64,000 nucleotides of DNA from the NCBI RefSeq assembly GCF_030464365.1, contig NZ_VCYI01000004.1:124001-188000 (forward strand). The letters run 5' to 3'. The notes below the pieces were generated by a model. That model was not told the DNA's origin and did no database searches. It was given only the letters and a program-made list of their open reading frames with translations. This stretch comes from Methanoculleus methanifontis (GTDB lineage: Archaea; Halobacteriota; Methanomicrobia; Methanomicrobiales; Methanoculleaceae). Position 1 is the stretch's first letter; each line of letters begins with the position of its first letter. Of this stretch, positions 35,418 to 52,956 are shown piece after piece. The translations under genes were made by a program, and so were the position numbers.

Positions 35418-36101
35418 ATGAAAAAAACCCAGTTTCTGGTACTGACATTGTCCGTGATGCTCGCTGTGGTCGCACCAGCACTGGCAACCCAGGACCAGGA
35501 GGCCTCCCAGGGGTCGTATGATGTCGTTGTGTACATCGACGATACGAAGGTCCTTGCGGAAGACAGCAACGGCCAGGTGATCAGCACCGGAACCGCGGGA
35601 ACGGATGACAGCGAGGTCGTCCAGGCCGCAGTACAGGCCGTCGGTGACGGTACCGTAGTCCTTCTGGCAGGAACCTATGCCCTGCAGAACCCCATCGAGA
35701 TCGGGGTATCCAATCCAACCCCGACACCGACGCCAACACCGACGCCTACCGCGACGCCCACGCCGGGAACGCCCGATCTCGTCGTGACCGACGTCTCCTG
35801 GATACCGGCAAGCCCGGCTCCGGGTGATGCAATCACGATGAAGGCGACGATCCGCAACCAGGGCACCGGTGCAACGCCCGCAGGCGTGATCCACGGCGTG
35901 GCCTTCACAGCGGACGGGAACCTCGGTTCCGCGGTCTGGTCGGACAGCCACACGGCGTCCATCGCCCCGGGCGAATGGATTACGGTGACCGCAAACGGCG
36001 GCGTTGACGGTGCAACCTGGACCGCGGTCGCAGGCACGCACACTGTCACCGCGACGGTCGACGACGTCGACCGCATGACGGAGAGCAAAGATACAAAATA
36101 A
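35418..36101 (+). CDS. Exported CARDB-domain protein, collapsed beta-helix relative
   Basis: A 227-residue exported protein. It has a signal peptide (MKKTQFLVLTLSVMLAVVAP, cleavage after ALA), then a short region (TDDSEVVQAAVQAVGDGTVV, then LLAGTYALQNPIEI) that equals the beginning of the beta-helix domain in the larger proteins of this island. The helix itself is missing, and a Thr-Pro linker leads into one CARDB repeat (PDLVVTDVSWIPASPAPGDA). The CARDB ends VDDVDRMTESKDTK and lacks the usual ESNENNN tail plus a final strand, suggesting a truncation by an in-frame stop. Surface-associated; function unknown. Confidence 0.78.
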   Translation: MKKTQFLVLTLSVMLAVVAPALATQDQEASQGSYDVVVYIDDTKVLAEDSNGQVISTGTAGTDDSEVVQAAVQAVGDGTVVLLAGTYALQNPIEIGVSNPTPTPTPTPTPTATPTPGTPDLVVTDVSWIPASPAPGDAITMKATIRNQGTGATPAGVIHGVAFTADGNLGSAVWSDSHTASIAPGEWITVTANGGVDGATWTAVAGTHTVTATVDDVDRMTESKDTK

Positions 36102-36566: not shown

Positions 36567-37634
36567 GTGACATCGGTGCGGCTGCGAGCGGTCGGGGACG
36601 TGCTCCTCTGGATGAGGAACGGCAAGAGACCGTTTGCCCTTGTCCAGCACGAACTCCAACAGAAAGACCTGCTCTTCGGGAACCTGGAGACGGTTCTCTC
36701 CGAGAGCGGAACCGAGAGCAAGAAACGCTGGGTCAATACAACCCCCCCGGAGGCGGGCGAGTACCTCAGAGAAGCCGGGTTCGACATCCTCAGCGTGGCA
36801 AACAACCACACGCTCGACATGGGCCGGGAAGGGCTTGAGAAGACCCTCGAAGAGCTTGAAGGCCGGGGCATCGCCTACGTAGGAGGAGGAAGAGGCGATG
36901 AAAGACCCCAAGGGCTGATCGTCGAACGCAATGGGATCCGGTTCGGTTTCCTCGCATACACGACCGGGAGGTTCCGGTCGCCGCCGGGCGTCACCGTTGC
37001 CAAACTGAAGAAGAAGAGCGTCATCGAAGATATCAGGGCGTTAAAGGAGCATACCGATCATGTCGTCGTCTCCCTGCACTGGGGGATCGAGAACACCTAC
37101 TACCCCTCGCCCGACCAGGTCAGGCTCGCTCACGCCTTCATCGACAACGGGGCGACCCTGATCCTCGGGCACCACTCGCATACCATCCAGGGGCTGGAAC
37201 GCTACAAAGACGGCCTGATCGCCTATTCACTCGGGAATTTCCAGTTCGATACCGAGATCTTCAAGGAGCAGATCAACACCTCCATGATCCTCTCGGTGGA
37301 CTTCGACCGGCACGGCATCCGGGACTACACGACCATTCCCTGCGTCATCAACAGCGACTTCCAGCCTGGAGTGGCGGAGGGCCGAACCAGGGAACGGGTA
37401 GCACGCTGGATAGCAAGGTGCTCCGAGAGGGTGCGTAACGGGAACGTTACCCGCCAGTGGTGGTTCGAGCAGATCGGCGAGGACTACCTGCTGTACAACC
37501 TGGAGAGTTACCGCTACCGGATCCGGCAGCACGGGCTTGCGCCCCTGATCGAGTGCGGAGTCTGGCTGGTGACGCCGTTCTGCCTGAACTGCTACGCAGG
37601 TGTGATCCGGAAACGGTTGAGACACGGAACATAG
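36567..37634 (+). CDS. CapA-family protein (PGA_cap metallophosphatase-like)
   Basis: A 355-residue protein with the calcineurin-like metal-binding blocks of the CapA family: RAVGDVLLW, FGNLETVLS, ANNHTLDMGREGL, SLHWGIE and LGHHSHTIQGLE. GTG 36567 has GGAGG seven bases before it. Bacterial CapA participates in poly-gamma-glutamate capsule production, but many members sit in other polysaccharide loci. Here it precedes a GT4 gene by 10 bp inside the glycan island, so a role in polymer processing or attachment is inferred. No signal peptide is visible. Confidence 0.85.
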   Translation: MTSVRLRAVGDVLLWMRNGKRPFALVQHELQQKDLLFGNLETVLSESGTESKKRWVNTTPPEAGEYLREAGFDILSVANNHTLDMGREGLEKTLEELEGRGIAYVGGGRGDERPQGLIVERNGIRFGFLAYTTGRFRSPPGVTVAKLKKKSVIEDIRALKEHTDHVVVSLHWGIENTYYPSPDQVRLAHAFIDNGATLILGHHSHTIQGLERYKDGLIAYSLGNFQFDTEIFKEQINTSMILSVDFDRHGIRDYTTIPCVINSDFQPGVAEGRTRERVARWIARCSERVRNGNVTRQWWFEQIGEDYLLYNLESYRYRIRQHGLAPLIECGVWLVTPFCLNCYAGVIRKRLRHGT

Positions 37635-37644
37635 GAGGATGTGA

Positions 37645-38880
37645 ATGAAGGTATTACAGGTGACCCCGTTCTTCAAACCGCTCTGGGAGTCGGGCGGGGT
37701 GGCACGGGTCGCATATGATATTTCCCGGACCCTGCACGAGAACGGGCACGATATCACCGTCTACACGACGAACCGGAGCATCTACCCAAACGACCTGCCG
37801 ACGAACCGCGCCACCTCCGTCGACGGGATGAACGTCTATTACTTCGAGAATTTACGAAAATACGCCCCGGGCGTGACCCCGCCGGTGCTGCCCTACCGGA
37901 TGCCGGCGGTCGCGAGAAGGGAGATTGCCGCATTCGACCTCGTCCACATCCACGACCACCGTACCATGCTCACCGTCATCGCCTCGCACTACGCGAGGAA
38001 GTACGGGATACCCTACGTGCTCCAGGCGCACGGGGCGCTCCCGCAGGATACGGGGTCAAAACGGATGAAGCGGCTCTTCGACCAGTTCTGGTCGGACAAG
38101 GTGATCCTCGGCGCCGCGGGCGTTATAGCGCTCAACGAGACGGAGGCCGAGCGCTACCGCGAGCGGGGTGTTGCCGACGAGAAGATCGCGATCTTCCCGA
38201 ACGGCATCGACCTTGCCGAGTATCCCTCCCTCCCGGCCCGAGGCAGGTTCCGTGTGGCATGGGGGATCGACGACGCCACGAAGATCGTGCTCTACCTCGG
38301 GAGGCTCGACCCCACGAAGGGGATCGATCTCTTGATCCGCTCGTTTGCCGTGGTCGCGCGGGAGTTCGACGACGCTGTCCTGGTGATCGTGGGCGGGGAC
38401 ATGGGCCACAACGAGGAGTTCAGGCAGCGGGTAGAGTCGCTCGGTCTCGACGACCGGGTGATCTTCACGGGGTTCGTGAGCAAGGAGGACAAGATGGCCG
38501 CGTACACCGACGCCGACGTCTTCGTGACGCCGAGTTTCACCGGTTTCCCCGTCACGTTCCTTGAAGCGTGCCTCTGCGGGACACCCATCGTGACCACGGG
38601 CAAGGGGGACCTGCTCGGGTGGATCGACAACACCGTCGGGTTCAATGCCGGGTACACGCCGGAGGCGCTCGCCGACGCCATCGGACGCCTGCTTGCTGAC
38701 GAAACGCTGCGGGCAGGGTTCGGGGAGCAGGCGAAAGAACTCGTCCGGACCAGGTACAACTGGCAGGCAATCGTCAGCGATATCGAGACGTTCTACGCGA
38801 AGGTTGCCGGGAAGGCGGAAGGAGGCATCCCGGCGGGGGTCTCGAAAGGGACAACACCGAAGGCCCCGGATACTTTTTGA
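37645..38880 (+). CDS. GT4 family glycosyltransferase
   Basis: A 411-residue GT-B enzyme. The N-terminal QVTPFFKPLWESGGVARVAYD and the C-terminal nucleotide site (YLGRLDPTKGIDLLIRSF; PSFTGFPVTFLEACLCGTP) identify GT4. In the C-terminal EX7E motif the first Glu is replaced by Thr (FTGFPVTFLE). A GGAGG site lies six bases before the start. It probably adds a sugar to a lipid-linked glycan in the cytoplasm. Confidence 0.88.
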   Translation: MKVLQVTPFFKPLWESGGVARVAYDISRTLHENGHDITVYTTNRSIYPNDLPTNRATSVDGMNVYYFENLRKYAPGVTPPVLPYRMPAVARREIAAFDLVHIHDHRTMLTVIASHYARKYGIPYVLQAHGALPQDTGSKRMKRLFDQFWSDKVILGAAGVIALNETEAERYRERGVADEKIAIFPNGIDLAEYPSLPARGRFRVAWGIDDATKIVLYLGRLDPTKGIDLLIRSFAVVAREFDDAVLVIVGGDMGHNEEFRQRVESLGLDDRVIFTGFVSKEDKMAAYTDADVFVTPSFTGFPVTFLEACLCGTPIVTTGKGDLLGWIDNTVGFNAGYTPEALADAIGRLLADETLRAGFGEQAKELVRTRYNWQAIVSDIETFYAKVAGKAEGGIPAGVSKGTTPKAPDTF

Positions 38881-39454: not shown

Positions 39455-40915
39455 TTACGCGCCGGCAGACGCAACCGCCATGCCTTCTGTCCGGACGTTC
39501 TCTCCGCCCTCGACCAGGAACGCTTTCTCGGAGGCGGAGGTTATATCTCCGGTGTACTGGACGTTCTGGTTGTTCTTCGCCCAGACGAGCGTCTCGGCCC
39601 GGTCGCCGGAGGCGTGGATGTCCACTTCGGCATTGCTGAACTGGCCGTTCGTGCCGCCGAGGCTTGCACCCTTGCCGTCGATCCCGGCCGGGTTCACGAG
39701 CTCGAAGTTCTTGATCTGGATGTTGCTCGCGAGGTCGACCTGGAGGCCGTAGCCGTGCGAGTCGATGCTCGTACAGTTCTCAAGCACCAGGGCGGGATCG
39801 GTCGAGCGGCACGGGATGCTGTAGTAGCCGGCCGGCTTACGGTAGGTGTAGTCGGTCTTCCCGGCGCCGGTGTCCTTCTCGACACAGTCGTAGAGTTTGC
39901 CGCCGTTCGTCGCGTAGAACCCATACAGCGAGTTACCTTCCGCGGTGCAGTCGATGAACGTCACGTCGGCGTTCGGGGCGTAGAAGCCGCACCCGAAGTA
40001 GTGGGTCGACATGTCGCTCTGCTTGTAGGGCACCGTCGGGTAGGGTTTCTGCCCGTTGTTTACACTCGTGCAGTTCTCGAGGACGGCGTTCGTCACCTTC
40101 GGGTCAAACTCGAAGTGGAACCCGGACTCCAGGTTGCCCTCCGCATAGCAGTCCTTCACGTAGAGACCGTCCATGTCGTTTAACTCCGCAAAGTCGAACC
40201 CGGTGATCCAGGGGTTGAACACACCCGTGCTTCCGCAGTTGATCGCGGCGCAGTTCTCGTAGCGGACGTCCTTGATCACCTTGTTGGACGAGCCCCACGC
40301 GTTGTGGATGAACCCGTACGTCCCGGTGTCCTCGGCCCTGCAGTCGATGAACTCGACGTCTTCGAGGGTCGGGGCATAGACCGCCGGATCGTGCAGCAGG
40401 AGGAAGACCGCCTGGATGCTTGCGTCAGCGGTACCCGTGATGTCGTGGATCTTTGCATGACTTGCCCGGATAGTCATCACACCGAGCCACTTGACACCGC
40501 TGCTGTAGCCGCTGCCCTCGATGTGGAACCCGTCCAGGGTCACGTATTCCTGGTCGACGTTGATACGCCCGTCACTGGTGAACACGAGGTTCGTTGCATC
40601 CGGACCCTGTCCGGAGAGCGTCGTGCCCGCAGGCGGCGCGATGACGCCGGCGCAGTTGAACGTACCGCCCGTAAGGACTACCTTACCGCCGTCGGGCAGC
40701 GCGGCGAGCGCCGCCTGGATCTCGGCCTGGTCATCGACTCCATCACAGACATAGTCTGCCTGGTTTTTCGACAGTTCGGTGCTATCGCTTGCAGCCACGG
40801 TGAGCGTGGCCGGACTTGCGGACTCGGCTGCACTTACCGGGGAGAGTGCCGGAATAATCAGGCAGCACGCCAGAAGTGCTGCAGCCAGTCTCAGTATATT
40901 CTGCCTATCTGTCAT
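39455..40915 (-). CDS. Exported right-handed beta-helix protein, paralogue A
   Basis: A 486-residue secreted protein. After a signal peptide (about 1-29) comes the family start LTVAASDSTELSKNQADYVC and DDQAEIQAALAALPDGGKVV, the first turns of a pectate-lyase-like beta helix with GGTFNC. The central block (GTADASIQAVFLLLHDPAVY, DTGTYGFIHNAWGSSNKVIK, GFDFAELNDMDGLYVKDC, ESGFHFEFDPKV) is nearly identical in the paralogues at 46522, 49511 and 51403. Many regularly spaced Cys and Asn residues stack along the helix. There is no C-terminal anchor or sorting domain. It could be a polysaccharide lyase, epimerase or adhesin; catalytic residues cannot be assigned. Confidence 0.88.
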   Translation of the reverse strand: MTDRQNILRLAAALLACCLIIPALSPVSAAESASPATLTVAASDSTELSKNQADYVCDGVDDQAEIQAALAALPDGGKVVLTGGTFNCAGVIAPPAGTTLSGQGPDATNLVFTSDGRINVDQEYVTLDGFHIEGSGYSSGVKWLGVMTIRASHAKIHDITGTADASIQAVFLLLHDPAVYAPTLEDVEFIDCRAEDTGTYGFIHNAWGSSNKVIKDVRYENCAAINCGSTGVFNPWITGFDFAELNDMDGLYVKDCYAEGNLESGFHFEFDPKVTNAVLENCTSVNNGQKPYPTVPYKQSDMSTHYFGCGFYAPNADVTFIDCTAEGNSLYGFYATNGGKLYDCVEKDTGAGKTDYTYRKPAGYYSIPCRSTDPALVLENCTSIDSHGYGLQVDLASNIQIKNFELVNPAGIDGKGASLGGTNGQFSNAEVDIHASGDRAETLVWAKNNQNVQYTGDITSASEKAFLVEGGENVRTEGMAVASAGA

Positions 40916-40961
40916 GCCATTCAGCCTCTCTGTGAGGTATCACTACCGTCTTTCCATTGCC

Positions 40962-40971
40962 ATATAAATAT
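40962..40971 (-). promoter_or_regulatory. TATA box of beta-helix paralogue A
   Basis: The minus strand reads ATTTATATGG, with a start expected about 25 nt downstream and a GAGAGG ribosome-binding site about ten bases before the ATG. Confidence 0.6.
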
Positions 40972-41426
40972 TTTATTGTTGAAATAAAATTATTTTGAGG
41001 GCTTAATCGGCAATATGGACTGCAGGAATGCCGTCAGTTGCGACGCTGCCGTAGCATAACGGAGATCGATTCCTGCAAAAAGATATTATATGATCAATTT
41101 AATTAAAATCGAAGGATACAAATACTCGCGCTTTTCGCTGCCGTTCGCCGGGAGTGACCCTCCCCGAAACGTTTTCATCCGGGACTGATGGGAATTCAGT
41201 TTCGTGCGCCGGCACGGCACGAGCCCCCCGACCCTCGCTACGAGGCGACGGCGTTAAAAAGCACGGATTCCACATCGCTTGCGTGAATCAGGAGCCGCTG
41301 CGGCCTGATGCAACAGGAATACCATGTGAATACGCCCGGAGGGAAACGGCTGGCGGGGCGGATGCCGGCGGGGTTACATGCACACCAGAAGGGTTCATCC
41401 ACCCAACGACGCTCCAGGGCACAACC
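40972..41426. other. Intergenic region, no gene seen
   Basis: AT-rich nearest paralogue A, GC-rich after 41150. No repeat ladder and no recognisable coding sequence; short frames here are unsupported. Confidence 0.6.
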
Positions 41427-41434
41427 TCTATATA
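41427..41434 (+). promoter_or_regulatory. TATA box, leaderless GT4 gene
   Basis: The string tctatata, centred 29-30 nt before ATG 41460, is the spacing of a leaderless transcript. Confidence 0.65.
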
Positions 41435-41459
41435 GAGCATCCTCACAGAGAGAGCCCCT

Positions 41460-42635
41460 ATGCGAGTGGCGTGCCTGACCTTCTGGTTCTACGACTACAC
41501 CATCCAGATGGCAAACGAACTTGCCCGGCATGCCGAGGTGCTGCTCCTCCTCCCCGATTACAGGTCGGAGGAGTACGTGGAGAGCATCGACCCGGGGGTG
41601 AACGTCCATATCTTCGGTTACTCCCGGTACGCCGGAAGGCCGGGCCCGTCGTGCTACCCGATGCTCAAAGATATCGTCGCCGCAATCAACGGCTTCGGGC
41701 CCGACGTCGTCCACTTCCAGGTGAACAACCCCATGCTCTGCCCGCTCCTCCCCATGCTCCGGAAGTACCCGCTGGTGGCGACGTTTCACGACATCGAACC
41801 CCACCGCGGCGAAGACCGTCTCCTTGATGTGGGCTCGCTGCTCTACCGGCTCACCCTCCTCGTATCAAGGGTCATGCCCGACCGGATCTTCGTTCACGGA
41901 AAGGCCCTCCGCGACACCCTGGTGGAGAACTACCACGTCCACGGAGAGAACGTGCACGTCATCCCCATCGGCGAGCACGAGGTGGCGCCGTTTGTGAAGT
42001 TCGAGCGCGACGACCTGGAACCCGACGGCCACCGGGTTCTCTTCTTCGGACGCATTCACCGTTATAAAGGGCTCGACTGCCTGATCCAGGCAGAACCGCT
42101 CATCACCCGGGAGATCCCGGACGCCCGGATCGTCATCGCCGGAACGGGCGAGGATTTCGGCAGGTATGAGGAGGCGATGGCGGGCCGTGACGCCTTCGAG
42201 GTCTACAACTACCGGATACCCTACGAAGAGGGCGCCCGGCTCTTCCAGCAGGCGAGCGCCGTGGCGCTCCCGTATCTCGAAGCGTCCCAGAGCGGCGTCA
42301 TCCCGACCGCATACGGGTTCCGGCGGCCGGTGGTGGTGACCGACGTGGGGAGCCTGCCCGAGGTCGTCGATGACGGGGTGACCGGCTATGTCGTGCCGCC
42401 GCGAAACCCGGAAGCACTGGCAGACGCGATCGTCCGCCTGTTGAAGGATCCCGGGGCGTGCCGCCGCATGGGGGAGCAGGGTTACGCAAAACTGAAGACG
42501 GACATGGCCTGGTCGACGATAGCGCGATCTCTCCTCGCGGTTTACAGCGAACTCGGATCCGCTCCGGGGAGGGGAACCGTTCCTGCGGATGAGGCATTCG
42601 TCGATACCGCTCCCGCTTCCGGGAAAGAGCGATGA
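41460..42635 (+). CDS. GT4 family glycosyltransferase
   Basis: A 391-residue GT-B protein. The second Rossmann domain shows VLFFGRIHRYKGLDCLIQAE, VIAGTGEDFGRYEE and LPYLEASQSGVIPTAYGFRR, followed by VVVTDVGSLPEVVDDGVTGY, all typical of GT4 donors using nucleotide sugars. A disordered Pro/Ala tail ends the protein. It stands between paralogue A and the DUF2206 gene in the glycan island. Acceptor and sugar unknown. Confidence 0.88.
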   Translation: MRVACLTFWFYDYTIQMANELARHAEVLLLLPDYRSEEYVESIDPGVNVHIFGYSRYAGRPGPSCYPMLKDIVAAINGFGPDVVHFQVNNPMLCPLLPMLRKYPLVATFHDIEPHRGEDRLLDVGSLLYRLTLLVSRVMPDRIFVHGKALRDTLVENYHVHGENVHVIPIGEHEVAPFVKFERDDLEPDGHRVLFFGRIHRYKGLDCLIQAEPLITREIPDARIVIAGTGEDFGRYEEAMAGRDAFEVYNYRIPYEEGARLFQQASAVALPYLEASQSGVIPTAYGFRRPVVVTDVGSLPEVVDDGVTGYVVPPRNPEALADAIVRLLKDPGACRRMGEQGYAKLKTDMAWSTIARSLLAVYSELGSAPGRGTVPADEAFVDTAPASGKER

Positions 42636-42796
42636 CCTGGCCCCCCTCGCGTAATGGGGGCCGGACCGGCGCAACACATTAATAGGTTGACCGGAGAGTA
42701 GGTGCACTGATGCAGCGCACGATCTGTCGGATGCCGCTAACGGAGAAGGCCCATCGTCCATGCACGTAGCCGACCAAAGACTGAACAAGGGATACC

Positions 42797-45004
42797 ATGC
42801 ACCTTCCAAACCCGTTCCGGATGAATGACTGGAATAATAGAACGTTTTTCTGGGTATTTCAGGCGCTCCAGTTTGTCTTCCTCGGGGTGGTCTGCCTCGA
42901 TCTCGTCGGCTATTATATACCGGTTGCCAGGGAAGTCCTGGCGTTTCTTTACCTTACTTTCCTGCCCGGAGTCCTCGTTCTGAAGGCGCTCAGGCTCCAC
43001 GATCTCGGCTCGATCGAGACGGTGCTCTACTCCGCAGGGCTGAGCCTCGTGGTCGTCATGCTCACCGGCCTTACGGCCAACTTCGTGTACCCGCTGCTCG
43101 GGTATACGCGGCCGTTCTCGTTTACGATCCTCCTTCTCACGCTCGTCGCCGTGGTGCAGGTCCTGCTCTACCTCGCGCTCACCAGGGATAAGGGGCGTAC
43201 CGGTGAGAGCCCGGGGCTGGCCGTCCCCTCCTCTCCTGCAGTACCGTTCCTGCTACTCCTTCCGTTCCTTGCGATCATCGGGACATACATGCGCGACGGC
43301 TACCACATGGTCACGCTCCTCTTCCTGCTCCTCATCCTGATCGCCGTCATCGGCCTCGCCGTCGGGTTCGAGCGCCTCATCCCGAAGTCCTGCTACCCGC
43401 TCGGGATCTACGCCATCGCGCTGTCGCTCCTCTACCATACCTCGCTGATATCAGAGTATGTCTGGGGCTACGATATCCACCACGAACTCCACCTTGTAAA
43501 CAGTGTGCTGATACCGGGGCTCTGGGATATGACCATCCCATTTAACACGAACGGGATGCTCTCCGTCGTTGCGCTCGTTCCCATCTACTCGCTCATATGC
43601 GATCTGGATCCCGTCTGGGTCTTCAAGATCATCTACCCCCTCCTTTTTGCGCTTGTGCCGCTCGGGCTCTACCGCGCGGTCGAGAAACAGACGGACGCGA
43701 GGATCGGGTTTCTCTCGATCTTCTTCTTCTTCTCGTTCTTCACGTTCTACACGGAGATGATCTCCCTTGCCCGCCAGCAGATCGCGGAACTCTTCCTCGC
43801 GCTGACCGTTCTTGCGATGATCGATAAAACCATGGACCGGGGGAAGCAGGCGTTTCTCATGATCGCCTTTGCATTTGCCATGATCGTCTCGCACTACGGG
43901 CTCTCGTACATCTACCTCTTCTCGCTCGTTCCGGCATGGCTGCTGCTCGCCGTTTCCGAACGCCTGCAGTCCTGGCTGCCGAAGAGGCTCGCCCGGGGCG
44001 CTTCCCTCCTGAAACCCGACTCCGCCCCACCGGCGGGAACCGGCGAGAGGGGGCCGGTGAGGACACTCATCCTCCCCTACATCCTCATCTTCGCCGCCCT
44101 CGTCTACCTCTGGTACTCGACGGTCGCCGGAGGCACGGCGCTCGCTACCGTCACCGGCATCGGGGACAAGATATGGAATACCCTCTTTATGGACTCATTC
44201 AACCCGACAACCGCCCAGGGCATGCATATCCTCACCAGCCAATCGACAACGGTCCTGCACGGCCTCGCGAAGATCGTCCATATCGCCACCCAGGGCCTCA
44301 TCGCCGTCGGGCTGCTTGCAACCCTCGTAAAACGCGAGCGGTGGCGCATCGAGCCCGAGTATCTTGCCGTCTCGCTCGTCTTCCTGCTCATCAACGTCGC
44401 CGGTATCGCCGTCCCGTTTTTCGCAAGCTCCCTCAACACCAGCAGGCTCTACCACATCACCCTGATCTTCCTTGCCCCGTTCGCGGTCATCGGCGGCATA
44501 GCGCTGTATGAGAAGTTAACCGGGTGGATACGCGCGATCAGGACCGCTCCATTCATGGGGACGGCGTACCAGGCGCTGTCGGCGTTCTTCGTCGTCTTCT
44601 TCCTCTTCAACAGCGGGCTCCTCTACCAGGTCATGGACGACAACCCGACATCGATGGCGCTCGACACCGCCGGCGATAAGCCGGTCTTCAACGGCATGGA
44701 GGTGCAGGGAGCGGCATGGCTCTTTTCAGAGGGGAATGAGCGCCCGATCTACGTCGACGGCACACGTTGGTGGCTTCTATTGGGGTTCAACCCGGACAGC
44801 CAGCGATACGTTCCGGCAGATGCATCGCTGCTGGAGCCCAACACCTATCTCTACTTCGGCACGTACAACCTCATGCGGGACAGCATCCGGATCGAGACGC
44901 AGGAGCACGCAGTCACGACGGCAACGTATACGGATGCGGACCGGTTCATCTGGAGCCACCACCAGATATACGACAACGCTGGTTCCGCCGTTTACTACCG
45001 GTGA
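42797..45004 (+). CDS. DUF2206-like polytopic membrane protein
   Basis: A 735-residue membrane protein with roughly a dozen or more helices (from residue 18 to about 610) and a C-terminal extracytoplasmic domain (YVDGTRWWLLLGFNPDSQRY region). It resembles the archaeal DUF2206/COG5617 group of predicted membrane proteins in polysaccharide clusters, which look like GT-C or polymerase-type enzymes. No catalytic motif can be assigned with confidence. The upstream 161 bp has no strong promoter, so it may be read with the preceding GT4 gene. A second possible start lies eight codons in (MNDWNNR). Confidence 0.75.
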   Translation: MHLPNPFRMNDWNNRTFFWVFQALQFVFLGVVCLDLVGYYIPVAREVLAFLYLTFLPGVLVLKALRLHDLGSIETVLYSAGLSLVVVMLTGLTANFVYPLLGYTRPFSFTILLLTLVAVVQVLLYLALTRDKGRTGESPGLAVPSSPAVPFLLLLPFLAIIGTYMRDGYHMVTLLFLLLILIAVIGLAVGFERLIPKSCYPLGIYAIALSLLYHTSLISEYVWGYDIHHELHLVNSVLIPGLWDMTIPFNTNGMLSVVALVPIYSLICDLDPVWVFKIIYPLLFALVPLGLYRAVEKQTDARIGFLSIFFFFSFFTFYTEMISLARQQIAELFLALTVLAMIDKTMDRGKQAFLMIAFAFAMIVSHYGLSYIYLFSLVPAWLLLAVSERLQSWLPKRLARGASLLKPDSAPPAGTGERGPVRTLILPYILIFAALVYLWYSTVAGGTALATVTGIGDKIWNTLFMDSFNPTTAQGMHILTSQSTTVLHGLAKIVHIATQGLIAVGLLATLVKRERWRIEPEYLAVSLVFLLINVAGIAVPFFASSLNTSRLYHITLIFLAPFAVIGGIALYEKLTGWIRAIRTAPFMGTAYQALSAFFVVFFLFNSGLLYQVMDDNPTSMALDTAGDKPVFNGMEVQGAAWLFSEGNERPIYVDGTRWWLLLGFNPDSQRYVPADASLLEPNTYLYFGTYNLMRDSIRIETQEHAVTTATYTDADRFIWSHHQIYDNAGSAVYYR

Positions 45005-45028
45005 CCATACCTGGGAGTCGCAAAAGGG

Positions 45029-46270
45029 TTATAGCCATCCTTTCTTCTTCAGGAGCAGGCCAACGAGGAGCGTTCCCGCCGCATACGTGGCCAGCCACGC
45101 GTATCCCATGCCGATGAGGCCGAACTGATTCATCATGGCATAGCCGAGCCCGAGCAGGGCGACGCTGATGAAACTGCTGAGGACGACGAGGCTCCGGATA
45201 TCGTTTCGAACTTTTGCAATGGATATGAACGTCTGGCAGACAGAGACAAAGAGGGCGGATGCGGCAAGCACGCGGAGCAGGGCCATCCCTTCAAGGTAGT
45301 CCTTGCCGATCAGGTTGAGGATCTGCTCCCCGAAGAGGGAAAGGCCGATGATCGCCGGCACAAGCAGGGCGAGCATGCCACCGAGCGCCCGGAAAACGCT
45401 CTTCTTCAACTCCTCCCCGTGGCTTCCCTCGACAAAGAGCGAGGTCGTGAACGCGTAGGGGATCATGAAGAGGATCGAGACGATCGCGTAGGTGATGTAG
45501 TAGTTGGCGGTGCTCTCCGCCCCCAGCACGTTGAGCACCATAATCGGGATGAGCATGTTCGGGGCGGCCATCAGGATCCCGGCGATGTATGCGCCGGCGG
45601 AGAACTGCCATGCCTCCCGCATGAAGACCCGGTCAACGCAGGGCGTCGGTTTCACGGAGCACCGGGCAAGGAGAATGAGCGCCAGGACGAGCCCGAGGAT
45701 GAACGAGAGGCCAAAGGCGCCGAAGATGCCCATCGCACCGAGGGATACCAGGGGAACGAGGAAGAGGATCCGTGTCCCGTAGAGGAGGTTCAGGGTGAAG
45801 TAGTGTTCGGACTTCCGCAGGGCGTTGAACGCGCCCTCAAAGACCCAGGTGATAGAGTAAGCCCCGAGGATGACGAGGTAGAACGGCGCGATCGATCTGA
45901 CGATCGCGAGCTCGGGGGCCAGAACGTCGACCGCGGCGATGAAGAAGAGGCCCGCACCGAGCGCGACCGCCGTCGGGACCAGGACAGCGGTTCCGAGCAC
46001 CCGGTTCCTGTCGCGGGTCGGGAAGAACCGGATCACCGACTGGTCCAGGCCGAGCCGGGAGATAAGGATGAGGAGGCCCATCGACGACATCAGGGCGGTT
46101 GCAATACCCACGTCCGCCTGCGAATAGAACCGGGCCGCGATCATCCAGAAGAAGAATCCAAACCCCGCTGCAGCGAACGACGAGGCCATGATAAAGAACG
46201 AATTCCTGATAAGCGGCTGCTCTAAGTGCTGCCTGACCTCACTGAAGTTTTTCGGGAGCGCTACTGCCAT
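45029..46270 (-). CDS. Wzx/MATE-like polysaccharide flippase
   Basis: A 413-residue protein with about 12-14 helices and the polysaccharide-export signature FFFWMIAARFYSQADVGIAT then ALMSSMGLLILISRLGLDQS. These proteins flip lipid-linked glycans from the cytoplasmic to the outer face. ATG 46270 (MAVALPKNFSEV) is preferred over one eight codons upstream because a TATA box at 46295-46302 predicts transcription starting at about 46271. It converges with DUF2206. It supplies the translocation step for the glycan island. Confidence 0.88.
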   Translation of the reverse strand: MAVALPKNFSEVRQHLEQPLIRNSFFIMASSFAAAGFGFFFWMIAARFYSQADVGIATALMSSMGLLILISRLGLDQSVIRFFPTRDRNRVLGTAVLVPTAVALGAGLFFIAAVDVLAPELAIVRSIAPFYLVILGAYSITWVFEGAFNALRKSEHYFTLNLLYGTRILFLVPLVSLGAMGIFGAFGLSFILGLVLALILLARCSVKPTPCVDRVFMREAWQFSAGAYIAGILMAAPNMLIPIMVLNVLGAESTANYYITYAIVSILFMIPYAFTTSLFVEGSHGEELKKSVFRALGGMLALLVPAIIGLSLFGEQILNLIGKDYLEGMALLRVLAASALFVSVCQTFISIAKVRNDIRSLVVLSSFISVALLGLGYAMMNQFGLIGMGYAWLATYAAGTLLVGLLLKKKGWL

Positions 46271-46294
46271 TCGGTCGCCAGTATCGGTCGGCAC

Positions 46295-46302
46295 CTATAT
46301 AG
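46295..46302 (-). promoter_or_regulatory. TATA box of flippase gene
   Basis: The palindromic ctatatag is centred about 28 nt upstream of the chosen ATG at 46270, predicting a leaderless transcript. The remaining DNA to 46521 shows no gene. Confidence 0.65.
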
Positions 46303-46521
46303 ATGTATCCACCACTCTGACCCCGGGGGAGCCGGATATCATTCAGGAAAGAACTCTCAGGGCCGTGTTGCACGATGTGGCAACGGAAAATGCTCCTCGG
46401 ATCAGGTGAAAAAGACCTGTCCATAACCAATATGACCATGTACTGTACAGGTGTTACGGGGCGGCACCTGTGGCAAAACCAGGAGGAGAGGAGGGATCAA
46501 CCGCTCCTCCAGGTAGACGCT

Positions 46522-49092
46522 TTAGAGAGAAGAGGTCCTGCCGAAGAAGAAGTCGGCGATCAGGGCAACATCCTTCCAGTCCACAGTGCCGTCTCCATTA
46601 AAGTCAGCAGATGCGTTGGACGGAGTTGTTTTCTGCGCCATCTCGGCAGCGATCGTCACGTCGACCCAATCGACGTTGCCGTCTCCGTTAAGGTCGCCCC
46701 TGACGGGAGCCGGCAGGCTTCCAACGACGATCTCTTTGCTCATTACGTTGTTGTTCTCATTGTTTTCTGCAATCCGGTTGACGTCGTCCACATGCGCTTT
46801 CACGGTGTGGGTGCCTTCGACGGCCTTCCAGGTCGCACCGGCCGAGCCGCCGTTCGCGGTCACGGTGACCGACGCACCGGGAGCGATGGCCGTGGCGTGA
46901 GTGTCCGACCAGACGCCAGAGCCTGCCGCGCCGTCATCGAACGTGAAGAGGACGCCGTGTTTCGTGCCCGCAGGCGTCGGGGCATCGCCCTGGTTCTTGA
47001 TCGTGGCCTTCATCGTCACCGCATCCCCGGAGGCGGGCTTCGCCGGCGTCCAGGAGATGTCGGTCACCACGAGGTCGGGCTTTCCGGAGGGGGCAGGCGT
47101 GGTGGGAGTGGGGGTCGGGGTAGGCCCCGACGCGGCCTTTGCGACCGTGATCTGTTCACTCCTGATGTTGTTGTTCTCGTTGCTTTCTGCAATCCGGTTG
47201 ACGTCGTCGACGTGCGCCATCACGGTGTGGGTGCCTTCGACGGCCGCCCAGGTTGCACCAGCAGAGCCGCCGTTCGCGGTCACGGTGACCCATTCACCTT
47301 GAGCGATCGGCGAGGTGTGGGCATCAGACCAGACACCGGGCCCGGCGGCACCGTCATCGAACGTGAAGAGGACGCCGTGTTTCGTGCCCGCAGGCGTCGG
47401 GGCGTCGCCCTGGTTCTTGATCGTGGCCTTCATCGTCACCGCATCCCCGGAGGCGGGCTTCGCCGGCGTCCAGGAGATGTCGGTCACCACAAGGTCCGGC
47501 TTCCCGGAGGGAGCCGGGGTGGTGGGAACGGTTGGGGTGGGGGTCGGGGCCGGCGAGCCGGTGGACGTCACCTTCACGTTCTGGAGGGTCGCCTGGCCTG
47601 CCGGAACCGTGCCGACGATGGTCACGCCGGGGGAACCGGCGGGGAGGGTCTCAGAGACGATCTCCATGTCTTTCACGAGGACGTTCTTGGTCCTGTAGCC
47701 CTCGATCACGAACGGCTTCGCGGAGTCGGAGACAATCTGACCGGAGAAGACAGTGTTAATGTTCTCCTTCGCCCAGACCAGCGTCTCAACGCGGTTGCCG
47801 GATGCATAGATGCTCACCTCGGAGTTGTCGAACTGGCCGTTCGTGCCGCCGAGGCTGGAACCCTTGCCGTTGTACCCAACCGGGTCGACCAGGTGGAAGT
47901 TCCGGATCTTGACGTTGTTCGCGAGGTCAACCTGGAGACCGAACGCACGCGAGTTGATGCTCGTGCAGTTCTCCATCACCGTAGAGGGGTTGACCGAACG
48001 GGTCGGGATGCTGTAGTAGCCGGCGGGCACCCGGTAGGAGAAGTCGGTTCTCCCGATGCCGGTGTCCTTCTCGACACAGTTGTAGAGCTTCCCGCCGTTC
48101 GTCGTGTAGAACCCGTTCATGGAGTTGCCCTCCGCGGTGCAGTTGATGAACGTCACGTCACAGTTCGGGGCGTAGTAGCCGCACCCGAAGTAGTGGGTCG
48201 ACATGTCGTTCTGCTGGTAAGCACGCGTCGGGAAGGGCTTAACCCCGTTGTTGTTGCTCGTGCAGTTCTCGAGGACGGCGTTCGTCACCTTCGGGTCGAA
48301 CTCGAAGTGGAACCCGGACTCGAGGGTGCCCTCCGCGTAGCAGTCCTTCACGTGAAGGCCATCCATGTCGTTCAATTCTGCAAAGTTGAACCCGGTCACC
48401 CAGGGATTGAACGCTCCGAACTTACCGCAGTTGATTGCCTGACAGTTGTCGTAGCGGACGTTCTTGATCACCTTGTTCGTCGAACCCCATGCGTTGTGGA
48501 GGAACCCGTACGTCCCGGTGTCCACGGCCTTGCAGTTGACGAACTCGACATCTTCGAGGGTCGGGGCGTATACGGTCGGATCGTGAATCAGGAGGTAGAC
48601 CGCCTGGATGCTTGCATCAGCGGTTCCCGTGATGTTGTGGATCTTTGCGTGGCTTGCACGGATGTTCATCACACCGAGCCACTTGACGCCGCTGCTGTAG
48701 CCGGTTCCCTTGATGTGGAACCCGTCCAGCGTGACATGCTCACGGTCGACGTTGATGCGTCCGTCACGGGTGAACACAAGGTTTGTCTTGTCTGCACCCT
48801 CCCCCTTGAGGGTGGAGCCTGCTTTAGGAGCAATGATCCCTGCACAGTTGTACGTACCACTGGAGAGGAGGACAACACCGCCGGACGACGGCAGGGCATT
48901 CAGTGCTGCCTGGATCTCCACGTGATCGTTGACCCCATCACAGACGTAGGCAGCCGCCGCTTTATCGGCCGCACTGCTGTCGCTTGCCGCGACAATCGTG
49001 GTGGGAGTCGCTTCGAGTGCCCCGACAATCGGGACGAGCCCGACGATCAGGAACACTGCAATAAGAAGCTTGGTTGTCCGTCTATCTCGCAT
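46522..49092 (-). CDS. Exported beta-helix protein with two CARDB repeats and a dockerin, paralogue B
   Basis: An 856-residue secreted protein. ATG 49092 is chosen because GAGGTGA lies five bases upstream and it begins a clean signal peptide (MRDRRTTKLLIAVFLIVGLV). Residues about 30-510 are the beta helix shared with A, C and D. A Thr-Pro linker follows, then two CARDB domains (PDLVVTDISWTPAKPASGDA ... ESNENNN) each preceded by a TPTPT linker, then a C-terminal type-I dockerin: DLNGDGNVDWVDVTIAAEMA and DFNGDGTVDWKDVALIADFF, with two calcium loops. A dockerin implies docking to a cohesin-bearing surface partner, not seen in this window. Largest member of the family here. Confidence 0.9.
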   Translation of the reverse strand: MRDRRTTKLLIAVFLIVGLVPIVGALEATPTTIVAASDSSAADKAAAAYVCDGVNDHVEIQAALNALPSSGGVVLLSSGTYNCAGIIAPKAGSTLKGEGADKTNLVFTRDGRINVDREHVTLDGFHIKGTGYSSGVKWLGVMNIRASHAKIHNITGTADASIQAVYLLIHDPTVYAPTLEDVEFVNCKAVDTGTYGFLHNAWGSTNKVIKNVRYDNCQAINCGKFGAFNPWVTGFNFAELNDMDGLHVKDCYAEGTLESGFHFEFDPKVTNAVLENCTSNNNGVKPFPTRAYQQNDMSTHYFGCGYYAPNCDVTFINCTAEGNSMNGFYTTNGGKLYNCVEKDTGIGRTDFSYRVPAGYYSIPTRSVNPSTVMENCTSINSRAFGLQVDLANNVKIRNFHLVDPVGYNGKGSSLGGTNGQFDNSEVSIYASGNRVETLVWAKENINTVFSGQIVSDSAKPFVIEGYRTKNVLVKDMEIVSETLPAGSPGVTIVGTVPAGQATLQNVKVTSTGSPAPTPTPTVPTTPAPSGKPDLVVTDISWTPAKPASGDAVTMKATIKNQGDAPTPAGTKHGVLFTFDDGAAGPGVWSDAHTSPIAQGEWVTVTANGGSAGATWAAVEGTHTVMAHVDDVNRIAESNENNNIRSEQITVAKAASGPTPTPTPTTPAPSGKPDLVVTDISWTPAKPASGDAVTMKATIKNQGDAPTPAGTKHGVLFTFDDGAAGSGVWSDTHATAIAPGASVTVTANGGSAGATWKAVEGTHTVKAHVDDVNRIAENNENNNVMSKEIVVGSLPAPVRGDLNGDGNVDWVDVTIAAEMAQKTTPSNASADFNGDGTVDWKDVALIADFFFGRTSSL
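46931..47490 (-). repeat. Near-identical 140-bp direct repeat in the CARDB repeats
   Basis: 46931-47070 and 47351-47490 differ at one visible base (46984 a versus 47404 g), spaced by exactly 420 bp, i.e. 140 codons. Flanking parts of the CARDB units differ more, so this is a recent duplication or gene conversion patch. Confidence 0.85.
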
Positions 49093-49510
49093 TATCTCAC
49101 CTCTTGGGAGATACTCCATTATCTGATAGTTGTGTTTTAAAAGGTTTTTTAAATAAAGTGGGCCTATTTGAAAGAGCTGAATTTTAAAAAAAGCTCGCAT
49201 TAGCGAGGTAATCAACAATTTTCACCATTTTGGGAATTTGTGTTCCGACGAAAAAGAATATATACAAATTTGGAATTTAATACATACCCGCCGCAGAATA
49301 CGCACCCTGCCCGGGGATCCCCGGGGGCATTCCTGGAGGATGAACGGGGCCTGAATATCCATTATAATACGATAAGAATTATAAAACTCACGAAATCACA
49401 TGAGAGTCCGTGACCGTCGGCCGCGGCGGCAACAACCCCCCTGCCGCACCCCCGCCAGAACAGGATCAGCCGGGGAAACAGCACCGGCGATCCGGGGGAT
49501 GTACAGACGG
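49093..49510. other. AT-rich promoter region of paralogue B
   Basis: Strongly AT-rich (49120-49400), with several TATA-like stretches on the minus strand upstream of paralogue B, such as the reverse of tttaaaaggttttttaaata at 49136-49155. The GC-rich end (49400-49510) holds no gene. Confidence 0.55.
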
Positions 49511-51163
49511 TCAGAGCGAAGCCGAGGTGACCGCCACGTTCTCAAACGTCACCGCACCGGTAGGAACTGTATTCGTGAGGATGACGCCGTTGGTGAACGG
49601 CGCGAGGTTCGCGGAGACGATCTCCATATCCTTGACCCGGACGTTCTGGGTGCGATCGCCCTCGATCACGAACGGCTTTGACGAGTCCGAGACGATCCTG
49701 CCCGAATACTCGACATTTTCGTTATTCCTTGCCCATATAAGCGTCTCAGCCCGGTCACCCGATGCATAGATGTTGACCACGGAGTTTGCCAGCGGGCCCC
49801 CCTGTGATCCCCCGAGGTTCGTCGCTTTTCCATCGATTCCGGCCGGATTCTCCAGGTGAAAGTTCTTGATCCAGACGTCGCTCGCAAGGTCGATGTGGAG
49901 GCCGTAGCCGCACGAGTCGATGCTCGAACAGTTCTCGAGCACGAGCGACGGGGCAATCGAACGCGTCGGGGCGGCGTAGAACGATGCCGGCTGCACAATC
50001 CGATAATCGGTCTTCTCGACCCCGACGTTTCGGTCGACACAGTTGTAGAGTTTGCCCCCGTTCGTCGCGTAGAACCCGTGCCGGCTGTTTCCCTCGGAGT
50101 AACAGTTGATGAAGGTGATATCCCCCCGTGGGGCGTAGTAGCCGCATCCGAAGTAGTGCGTGGATCGGTCGTCCTCCCGATAGGGCTTTGTAGGATAGTC
50201 TTTCTGCCCGTTGTTGCGGCTGATGCAGTTTGTGAGGAGGCAGTCCCGCTTCTCAGGGTCCCACTCGAAGTGGAATCCGGACTCCAGGTTGCCTTCCGCA
50301 AGGCAGTTCGTCACCCGGAGACCCTCGATGTCGTTTAACTCCGCAAAATCGAACCCGGTCACCCAGGGGTTGAACGCTCCGAACCTGCCACAGTTGATCG
50401 CAGCACAGTTCTCGTAGCGGACATCCCGGATAACCCGGTTCGCCGTCCCCCAGGCGTTATGGAGGAACCCGTACGTCCCGGTGTCCACGGCCTTGCAGTT
50501 GACGAACTCGATGTCTTCGAGGGTGGGGGTGTAGACGTCCGGGTCGTGCATCAGGAGGAAGACCGCCTGGGTGCTGGCATCAGCAGTCCCCTCAACACCC
50601 AGGATCTTCGCATGGCTCGCATAGATGGTGACCACGCCGAGCCACTGGTCGGCCCCGGCCTTCGGGTACCCGGTGCCCCTGACGTGGAAGTTGTAGAGCG
50701 TGACGAACTCATGGGGAACAAGAAGCCGCCCGTTATTGGTGAACTCGATGAACGTCGCATTCGCCCCCTCCCCGCGAAGCATGGTCTTCGCACCGGGGTA
50801 GATGCTCCCGGCGCAGTTAAACGTGCCATCGAGGAGAGCGACCGTGCCGCCCGATGATAGTTCATCGAACGCTGCCTGGATATCCACCTGATCATCGGTA
50901 CCGTCGCACTGGATGTCGGCCCGGGCTTTCGCCGTAGCGCTGCTGTCGCTTGCTGCAACGACGATCGTCGGCCCGGCGATCTCCGGGGGCACCGCCGGAG
51001 TTGTCGGGATCGGGGTGATGGGTGGAGGAGGAGGGGGCGGGGGCACCGGAACCGGAGGGTAAAAGTGCATGATCAGCACGACGGCGACGATCACCGAGAG
51101 TATGATCGCGATGGCGATGAGGATGCGCCGTTCTCTGGCCCCCAGTTGCAGTCTTGCCGACAT
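49511..51163 (-). CDS. N-terminally anchored beta-helix protein, paralogue C
   Basis: A 550-residue protein. Instead of a cleavable signal it has a cytoplasmic basic start (MSARLQLGARERR), one transmembrane helix (about 14-34) and a Pro-rich spacer (HFYPPVPVPPPPPPPP), so the beta helix would stay tethered outside. The helix domain (IVVAASDSSATAKARADIQC onwards) aligns with A, B and D through DTGTYGFLHNAWGTANRVIR and ESGFHFEWDPEKRDC. The domain ends without CARDB or dockerin. The promoter would lie in the 239-bp gap to 51402, where no other feature is seen. Confidence 0.88.
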   Translation of the reverse strand: MSARLQLGARERRILIAIAIILSVIVAVVLIMHFYPPVPVPPPPPPPPITPIPTTPAVPPEIAGPTIVVAASDSSATAKARADIQCDGTDDQVDIQAAFDELSSGGTVALLDGTFNCAGSIYPGAKTMLRGEGANATFIEFTNNGRLLVPHEFVTLYNFHVRGTGYPKAGADQWLGVVTIYASHAKILGVEGTADASTQAVFLLMHDPDVYTPTLEDIEFVNCKAVDTGTYGFLHNAWGTANRVIRDVRYENCAAINCGRFGAFNPWVTGFDFAELNDIEGLRVTNCLAEGNLESGFHFEWDPEKRDCLLTNCISRNNGQKDYPTKPYREDDRSTHYFGCGYYAPRGDITFINCYSEGNSRHGFYATNGGKLYNCVDRNVGVEKTDYRIVQPASFYAAPTRSIAPSLVLENCSSIDSCGYGLHIDLASDVWIKNFHLENPAGIDGKATNLGGSQGGPLANSVVNIYASGDRAETLIWARNNENVEYSGRIVSDSSKPFVIEGDRTQNVRVKDMEIVSANLAPFTNGVILTNTVPTGAVTFENVAVTSASL

Positions 51164-51402
51164 GGAACTACGACCTGCCCATTATTGCTGTTGCCGGGAG
51201 ATTGCACGAGGCCGCGAGTGCCCGGTGACGCCGTTCACCCCGGCTCATACCCTATGGCACGGAAGTACCATTTAAGGGTTTAGCCGACCCCCTCAAACCG
51301 AAGGGTTCCATCCAGGGGTTCAGGGGGGACAGCGGACCCTGCAGCCCCCGGAACCGCAAATATCCGCGCACGACGCATTTCAGACCACAGGTGCCCCGGC
51401 AA

Positions 51403-52956
51403 CTATGCCGCACCGCCGGCCGGCAGCACTTCGAGATCGGTCAGATCCACATCCCCCGCCAGAGTCCACTCGGCCACCACCGGCCGGAGGGCATCGGAGA
51501 CGACCCTCCCGGAGTATTCGACGTTTCTGTTGTTGATGATATAGACCAGCGTCTGTGGCCGGTCTCCCGATGCGGCGAGATCGATGACCGAGTCGGAGAT
51601 GCCCGCATCGATCGTCGAGTTTACCGGGAGTTCGTGGGATGGGCACCCCAGCATCGCGCCGATCCCATCGATGCCCGCCGGATTGGTCATGGTGAAGTTC
51701 CTGATGAGCGCGTTCTTCGTGCCGCAGATGAAAAGGCTCCAGCCATAGGAATCGAGACTCCGGCAGTAATCCATCACGATGGACGGGCTCTTCGTGACGG
51801 GCAGGGACTGGAGGATGCAGTAGGATATGGGTTTTGCGGAATCACCGGCGGTCGAATCACGACCGGTCTCGCTCTCGGTGCAGTTGTAGAGGAGCATGCC
51901 TTCCGGGTTGATGACAAAGAACCCGAACGCACCGTTCCCCTCTGCCCGGCAGTTCACCAGCGCCACCTCCCCTCCCGGGAGGTAGAAGCCGGCGCCGAAG
52001 AAGTCAGGATCGCCCACCAGGTAGTCGTCGGGATAGGGTTTTTGCCCGTTGTTCCGGCTCACGCAGTTGGTGAAGACGCAGTCGCGTTTCTCTGGATCCC
52101 ACTCGAAGTGGAACCCGGACTCCATGTTGCCCTCCGCGAGGCAGTCCGTCACCCGGAGACGCTCGATGTCGTTTAACTCCGCGAAGTTGAACCCGGTCAC
52201 CCACTGGTTGAACGCGCCGTCGCTCCCGCAGTTAACGGCGGCGCAGTTCTCGTATCGGACGTTTTTAATCGTCGTGTTCTCTGAACCCCAGGCGTTATGG
52301 AGGAACCCGTACGTCCCGGTGTCCGCGGCCCGGCAGTTGACGAGCTCGACGTCTTCGAGGACGGGGGCGTAGACGTTCGGGTTGTGCAACAGGAGGAAGA
52401 CTGCCTGGATGCTTGCGTCGGCGGTGCCCGTGACGTTGTACACCCGGGCGTGGCTCGCGTAGATGGTGAGCACCCCGAGCCACGGGGTGAGATCGAGGGT
52501 CGTGTTCGTGCTCGCATTCACGTAACCCGAGCCCGCTATGTGAAACCCATCCAGGGTGACCCGCTCTTCCGAGACGTTGAGCACCCCGTTCCGGCTGAAC
52601 TCGATGGACGTTACCTCTGGCCCCTGCCCGAGAAGCGTCGTTCCGGCGCCGGGGATGAGGCTACCAGAACAGTTGAACGTGCCGTCCGAGAGGACGACCG
52701 TGCCGCCGTCAGGGAGGTCTGCGAGCGCTGCCTGGATCTCCACCTGGTCGTCGAGGCCGTCACAGGTGTAGTTCGCATCCGCTGCAGCACTGCTGTCGCT
52801 CGCCGCCACAACGATCGGCGCCACGGATGCGGCAGCAACACTCTGGACGAGCAGGAGGCCGGCAACTACGCCAACCAGGAGTACGACCGGCAGGTCCGCG
52901 GCGGGTGGGCGTGGCCGGGATGGGAACGGCGCTTTTTGACGCAAGTGGGCAATCAT
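51403..52956 (-). CDS. Exported beta-helix protein, paralogue D
   Basis: A 517-residue protein. I begin at ATG 52956 with GAGGAG upstream, giving a basic, Pro-rich start (MIAHLRQKAPFPSRPRPPAA) and a hydrophobic helix ending SVAAASVAP that may be a signal peptide or an anchor. The beta helix starts at VVAASDSSAAADANYTCDG. It has the conserved central block but an altered right-hand part (PDDYLVGDPDFFGAGFYLPG in place of the shared STHYFGCGFYAP region), making it the most divergent of the four. A longer upstream frame lacks supporting signals and runs over the promoter. Confidence 0.85.
   Translation of the reverse strand: MIAHLRQKAPFPSRPRPPAADLPVVLLVGVVAGLLLVQSVAAASVAPIVVAASDSSAAADANYTCDGLDDQVEIQAALADLPDGGTVVLSDGTFNCSGSLIPGAGTTLLGQGPEVTSIEFSRNGVLNVSEERVTLDGFHIAGSGYVNASTNTTLDLTPWLGVLTIYASHARVYNVTGTADASIQAVFLLLHNPNVYAPVLEDVELVNCRAADTGTYGFLHNAWGSENTTIKNVRYENCAAVNCGSDGAFNQWVTGFNFAELNDIERLRVTDCLAEGNMESGFHFEWDPEKRDCVFTNCVSRNNGQKPYPDDYLVGDPDFFGAGFYLPGGEVALVNCRAEGNGAFGFFVINPEGMLLYNCTESETGRDSTAGDSAKPISYCILQSLPVTKSPSIVMDYCRSLDSYGWSLFICGTKNALIRNFTMTNPAGIDGIGAMLGCPSHELPVNSTIDAGISDSVIDLAASGDRPQTLVYIINNRNVEYSGRVVSDALRPVVAEWTLAGDVDLTDLEVLPAGGAA

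Follow-up and report, generated by a model that had tools for sequence, protein, structure and literature searches.

The window, that is, the whole 64,000-nucleotide stretch of Methanoculleus methanifontis DNA that was analysed, contains four minus-strand ORFs (paralogues A-D) whose products appear to represent a new family of secreted right-handed β-helix proteins. The function of this family is probably directed at glycans, and our best reading, to which we assign a probability of roughly 0.5, is that its members are enzymes acting on the glycan made by their own locus. The features of the locus are as follows:

36567..37634 (+): PGA_cap protein (Pfam), syntenic in the genus
37645..38880 (+): GT1, family-4 glycosyltransferase (Pfam; gene-order comparison)
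39455..40915 (−): paralogue A, signal peptide and β-helix core only, 486 aa
40109..40210 (−): signature region of A (W236, D241, E244, E263, H267, E269)
41460..42635 (+): GT2, family-4 glycosyltransferase (Pfam), syntenic in the genus
42797..45004 (+): DUF2206 protein, predicted GT-C superfamily glycosyltransferase with invariant D226/E230/R550
45029..46294 (−): Polysacc_synt flippase (Pfam; gene-order comparison)
46522..49092 (−): paralogue B, signal peptide, β-helix core, two CARDB repeats and a dockerin
46558..46698 (−): dockerin type I domain of B (Dockerin_1, E 1.6e-6)
46738..47499 (−): two CARDB repeats of B (Pfam)
48301..48402 (−): signature region of B (W, N, E, E, H, E)
49511..51163 (−): paralogue C, N-terminal transmembrane segment (about 51059-51130), Pro-rich linker and core
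50264..50365 (−): signature region of C
51403..52956 (−): paralogue D, signal peptide (variable n-region) and core
52102..52203 (−): signature region of D

The four proteins have a common core of ~450-474 residues, with identities to A of 71% (B), 60% (C), and 53% (D). An alignment of eight sequences, bacterial copies included, contained ~140 invariant columns, among them DTGTYGF.HNAWG, FAELN, and ESGFHFE.DP; the motifs by which the first-pass annotation had recognized the core are indeed invariant in A-D. Pfam's Beta_helix model (PF13229) matched A and D above its cut-off and B and C more weakly, and a match to Pect-lyase_RHGA_epim (PF12708) was also obtained, with B and C under the cut-off for both models. 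Nothing above threshold was found in NCBIfam, which returned just sub-threshold matches of NosD type, and a sequence search of solved structures using A alone as query gave no match. Comparison with the orthologues of genome G048 yielded dN/dS values of 0.14 (A), 0.07 (B), 0.08 (C), and 0.09 (D), similar to those of the adjoining glycosyltransferase and DUF2206 genes. A-D are real and under purifying selection, and since the architecture of each orthologue is kept across the genus at dN/dS values of 0.07-0.14, the pattern is far beyond chance. Two further paralogues occur on another contig (C4:70679-74158), which brings the number in the genome to six. In some MAGs the copies of A or C were interrupted or N-masked (L051:331-2154, L047:18271-19589), which may reflect assembly problems. 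Elsewhere in the window, positions 35418-36101 (+) code for a secreted protein of 227 aa whose CARDB domain is similar to those of B. Residues 61-90 of this protein look like the β-helix N-cap, the remainder of the core being missing, and the protein is 89% conserved in Methanoculleus sp. MH98A (L038).

The AlphaFold model of the B core was a right-handed β-helix (pLDDT 94, pTM 0.93), and this model, the Foldseek results and the PF13229 matches of A and D together place the core in the right-handed β-helix (pectate-lyase-like) superfamily. Foldseek matches to the core comprised the AlgE4 C5-epimerase, PL6 lyases (chondroitinase B), GH87 glucanases, rhamnogalacturonan lyase, and phage tailspikes, at TM scores of 0.3-0.5 and identities of 10-17%; scores in this range indicate likeness of fold rather than family membership. 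Within the family, W203, E211, E230, H234, and E236 were kept in 59, 61, 60, 60, and 62 of 63 diverse members, respectively, i.e., in ~94% or more each, against a mean column identity of 37% over the same members. The signature W..GF[DN]FAE..ESGFHFE was near-invariant from 30% identity upward, and the conserved residues were present in all four paralogues. In the strand register of residues 207-210 against 231-235, position 208 lies over 234 and 210 over 236, outward-facing, and DSSP assignments taken with the sequence suggest that E211, H234, and E236 face outward on neighboring coils. The conserved, substrate-type site that the first-pass annotation had proposed to look for was found, in the form of this near-invariant set of polar and aromatic residues. 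Some members have N, L, I, or A in place of D208, and in genome G105 E211 gives way to N; such substitutions would count against an enzyme. The same is true of the fold comparisons, in which the likeness to known enzymes is generic, and of the profile comparison, in which no known catalytic motif was matched. The D/N alternation at position 208 within pairs was considered as a sign of specialization and rejected, because the residue also varies within orthologues.

Among known systems, the A-modules of the AlgE proteins (Azotobacter mannuronan C5-epimerases/alginate lyases) provided the best Foldseek and profile matches to the core. Like A-D, the AlgE proteins are secreted, modular β-helix paralogues, and they act on the cell's own exported polysaccharide, a property that we count as common with the proposal made here for A-D. 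However, sequence similarity peaks in the N-terminal cap, A-D have no R-modules, and the AlgE catalytic residues Y149, D152, H154, and D178 (PMC8824271) do not coincide with the conserved set of A-D; the AlgE6 profile match pairs GFDPHE with a later coil and not with the conserved ESGFHFE. Membership in the AlgE/AlgG C5-epimerases was rejected since the conserved set differs from the AlgE catalytic set. PL6 lyases (chondroitinase B, alginate lyases) have the fold in common with the core (TM about 0.5), but at 10-13% identity and with no PL6 sequence match in the profile search, so that the likeness is at the level of fold only. PF13229 and PF12708 are generic fold models that carry no functional assignment for A-D. 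Phage tailspike depolymerases also have this fold, and two distant members of the β-helix family lie among tail genes, whereas the methanogen copies are chromosomal and syntenic, have signal peptides and CARDB/dockerin or transmembrane anchors, and, in the window, are not encoded among tail genes.

The viral homologs (L157:5476-7353, L158:4123-5895) represent two lineages with a 28%-identical core and the signature W..GF..AE..WESGFH.E. On both contigs the core gene lies near a phrog_290 minor tail protein gene, and on L157 it adjoins a tape-measure protein gene and the C-terminus of its product matches a phage tail protein; phage records otherwise gave just partial matches, either N-cap or C-terminal. 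By sequence and gene context, the β-helix domain is a tail protein on these contigs, a second, independent setting that points to glycans.

The first-pass annotation had described four distinct modes of surface attachment. The domains reported for A (signal peptide only) and B (signal peptide, two CARDB repeats, and dockerin) were found as described, as were the N-terminal hydrophobic segment and polyproline spacer of C. Across the genus, A and D consist of a signal peptide and core in every case, with a variable n-region in D, and C always has its hydrophobic segment and Pro-rich linker; B always has a signal peptide, core, and CARDB repeats, and every complete B gene also encodes a dockerin, which ends in (F)FGR.xS. 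The Pro-rich stretch of D, on which a fourth mode had been based, forms the n-region of a signal peptide that looks cleavable (...LLLVQSVAA-AS) and is absent from the plain signal peptides of the D orthologs in L035 and L047; D was accordingly rejected as a separate mode, and the sequences indicate three attachment types, A and D being alike. Dockerin-mediated attachment of B did not stand either. Dockerin_1 is kept in the B orthologs, but a Pfam search for cohesin (PF00963) gave no match in this genome (G000), while a control genome did give one, so that the dockerin cannot be taken as a sign of attachment. Two forms were seen repeatedly among the distant members, commonly side by side in tandem. 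The long form has a short N-terminal region and a C-terminal extension of >200 residues in 16/18 cases, and the short form has a linker of at least 18 residues after its hydrophobic segment in 14/24, as sorted by a simple hydropathy rule rather than a signal-peptide predictor. The deeper rule thus appears to be a tandem pair of a long, modular secreted form and a short form that is often membrane-tethered. Different placement, as originally claimed, holds for B (modular, secreted) versus C (membrane-tethered), and this long/short pairing recurs across the order, but it does not hold for A versus D. In G046 and G074 (L069, L067), an extra long/short pair was observed ~10-20 kb from the main locus, adjoining further glycosyltransferase genes.

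Pfam matches bore out the genes said to be interleaved with A-D, namely two family-4 glycosyltransferases, the DUF2206 protein, and the Polysacc_synt flippase. The structural model of the DUF2206 protein had a pLDDT of 85, and its first 21 Foldseek matches were all GT-C enzymes (E 1.6e-5 to 0.04, TM 0.28-0.40), including STT3, AftA, ArnT, DPY19, and ALG9. From this fold, the protein is predicted to be an extracytoplasmic glycosyltransferase of the GT-C type. D226 and E230, candidates for the acidic residues of the first external loop, are invariant among 32 sequences; our literature search found no paper on DUF2206. The gene order A - GT2 - DUF2206 - flippase - B - C - D was kept in 16 Methanoculleus-type loci, these being the loci that span the whole order (fragmented contigs show parts of it), with an ATPase gene and mch in conserved order beyond C and D. 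A second locus of the genome consists of two glycosyltransferase genes, DUF2206 (40% identity), a flippase (54%), a CARDB/dockerin copy, and a transmembrane copy. The genome has no DUF2206 gene beyond these two, which between them flank all six β-helix copies. In family f4 a β-helix pair adjoins DUF2206 and three glycosyltransferase genes. Counted on contigs that carry both genes (fragmented contigs left out, species not independent), DUF2206 lay <12 kb from a β-helix copy in 30/32 cases in f1, 7/9 in f4, 1/3 in f5, and 0/2 in f6. The expected linkage to glycan genes in relatives was found in the genus, at the second locus, and in f4, but not in f6, where the copies are dispersed, nor in part of f5, where the link is loose. 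The refuting observation named by the first-pass annotation, paralogues of relatives lying mostly away from glycan genes, was thus made in part, among distant relatives, and these copies away from DUF2206 do argue against a link to the locus. So does the position of the UDP-sugar dehydrogenase genes of this genome, none of which is at either locus, though in G081 a group of four copies, far from DUF2206, is bordered by a flippase gene on one side and a UDP-glucose/GDP-mannose dehydrogenase gene on the other. At the usual position of DUF2206 between glycosyltransferase and flippase, L063:2377-4341 encodes a 654-aa protein with no Pfam match, possibly a substitute transferase.

Of 232 genomes of the methanogen's order, 62 carried the β-helix family, and all 25 positive genomes of a phylum-wide sample were within this order. 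Outside archaea, matches came from 1/393 genomes sampled from one bacterial order and 3/101 from the matching family, with Bacteroidia bacterium 43-41 and Proteiniphilum sp. UBA4977 among the carriers. Contamination was rejected as the source because the copies occur in three genomes, one of which is a single 3.9-Mb contig. The bacterial sequences formed one clade, sister to Methanoculleus B and nested within A, C, and D (supports 100/99 and 98/95), and a constraint holding archaeal A and B together to the exclusion of bacterial sequences was rejected (p-AU 0.0125), the group having been chosen after seeing the tree. B thus moved from a methanogen to Bacteroidia (Proteiniphilum group). After the transfer, B was duplicated, one copy losing its CARDB repeats; those retained are 69-74% identical to the first CARDB repeat of B. 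By inspection, the Bacteroidia copies look like a tandem pair of lipoproteins. Their locus contains genes for a SusC/TonB-dependent receptor, SusD, a DUF5060 protein, a GH27-type α-galactosidase, and a DLH esterase, as well as sugar isomerases, a ceramidase-like protein, and LarA. This locus of polysaccharide-utilization type is an independent context that, again, points to glycans. It was observed in L053:861-20293, L054, and L122/L123 as a carbohydrate locus organized around archaea-derived genes, and the DUF5060-protein gene appears shortened or absent in UBA4977 and G673.

In the mechanism that we propose, the cytoplasmic family-4 glycosyltransferases would build a lipid-linked glycan, the flippase would export it, and the GT-C type DUF2206 protein would extend or transfer it outside the cell, where the β-helix proteins may cleave, trim, or epimerize it using a candidate pocket of W, E (of FAE), and E/S, H, and E (of ESGFHFE). 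A and D would be released or loosely held, B would be carried on its CARDB modules, and C would be tethered to the membrane by its Pro-rich stalk; such placement would set one activity at different distances. For A-D we infer catalysis, reaction type, substrate, and final location alike. The earlier claim that the family binds or remodels the glycan of the locus gained from the conserved site, the glycan linkage, and the two further contexts. Binding alone would make A-D non-catalytic glycan-binding or matrix proteins, turned into adhesins or cross-linkers of the extracellular layer by their CARDB modules and transmembrane stalk. We regard this as a serious possibility but clearly the less probable one: CARDB has been linked to adhesion (PMC5244752), architecture is kept ortholog by ortholog, virus tail proteins may do no more than bind a receptor, and no known catalytic motif was matched, but the most conserved surface cluster is one of carboxylates and a histidine beside a tryptophan, as active sites typically have, the Bacteroidia copies sit with glycosidases and an esterase, and A and D have no adhesive module.

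That the β-helix genes lie beside the glycan locus by history, through tandem duplication, and have an unrelated function such as attachment to partner cells or solids, we consider improbable. Tandem duplication does account for part of the linkage, and copies are dispersed in f6 and distant in f5; nevertheless, linkage is seen at two diverged loci of one genome, in a second family whose DUF2206 is 37-40% identical, and, in another domain of life, again within a glycan locus. Still less probable is a role of the β-helix proteins as acceptors to which DUF2206 attaches the glycan, an idea suggested by the genomic linkage and by the resemblance of DUF2206 to oligosaccharyltransferases among other GT-C enzymes; A and C, at about 490-550 aa, contain just two N-x-S/T sequons apiece, the viral and Bacteroidia homologs have no DUF2206 neighbors, and the conserved site would be left unexplained. 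Returning to enzymes that act on the locus's own glycan, a wider scheme can be put forward only tentatively, and we think it rather unlikely as a whole: one glycan-recognizing or glycan-cutting domain may have circulated, with which the methanogen edits its coat, Bacteroidia feed on the coat or its debris, and viruses breach it, the Bacteroidia locus then being one for archaeal-glycan utilization.

Methanomicrobiales are dominant methanogens of biogas digesters, and their surface glycans are poorly known; our literature search found no paper on the β-helix family and no enzyme acting on Methanomicrobiales surface glycans. The family offers a candidate enzyme, a likely source of its substrate, and a transferred bacterial locus in which the neighboring glycosidase-type genes (GH27 type, DUF5060, esterase) give a clue to the chemistry of the sugar. 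Should that substrate prove archaeal, the idea that bacteria feed on the coats of methanogens could be put directly to the test.
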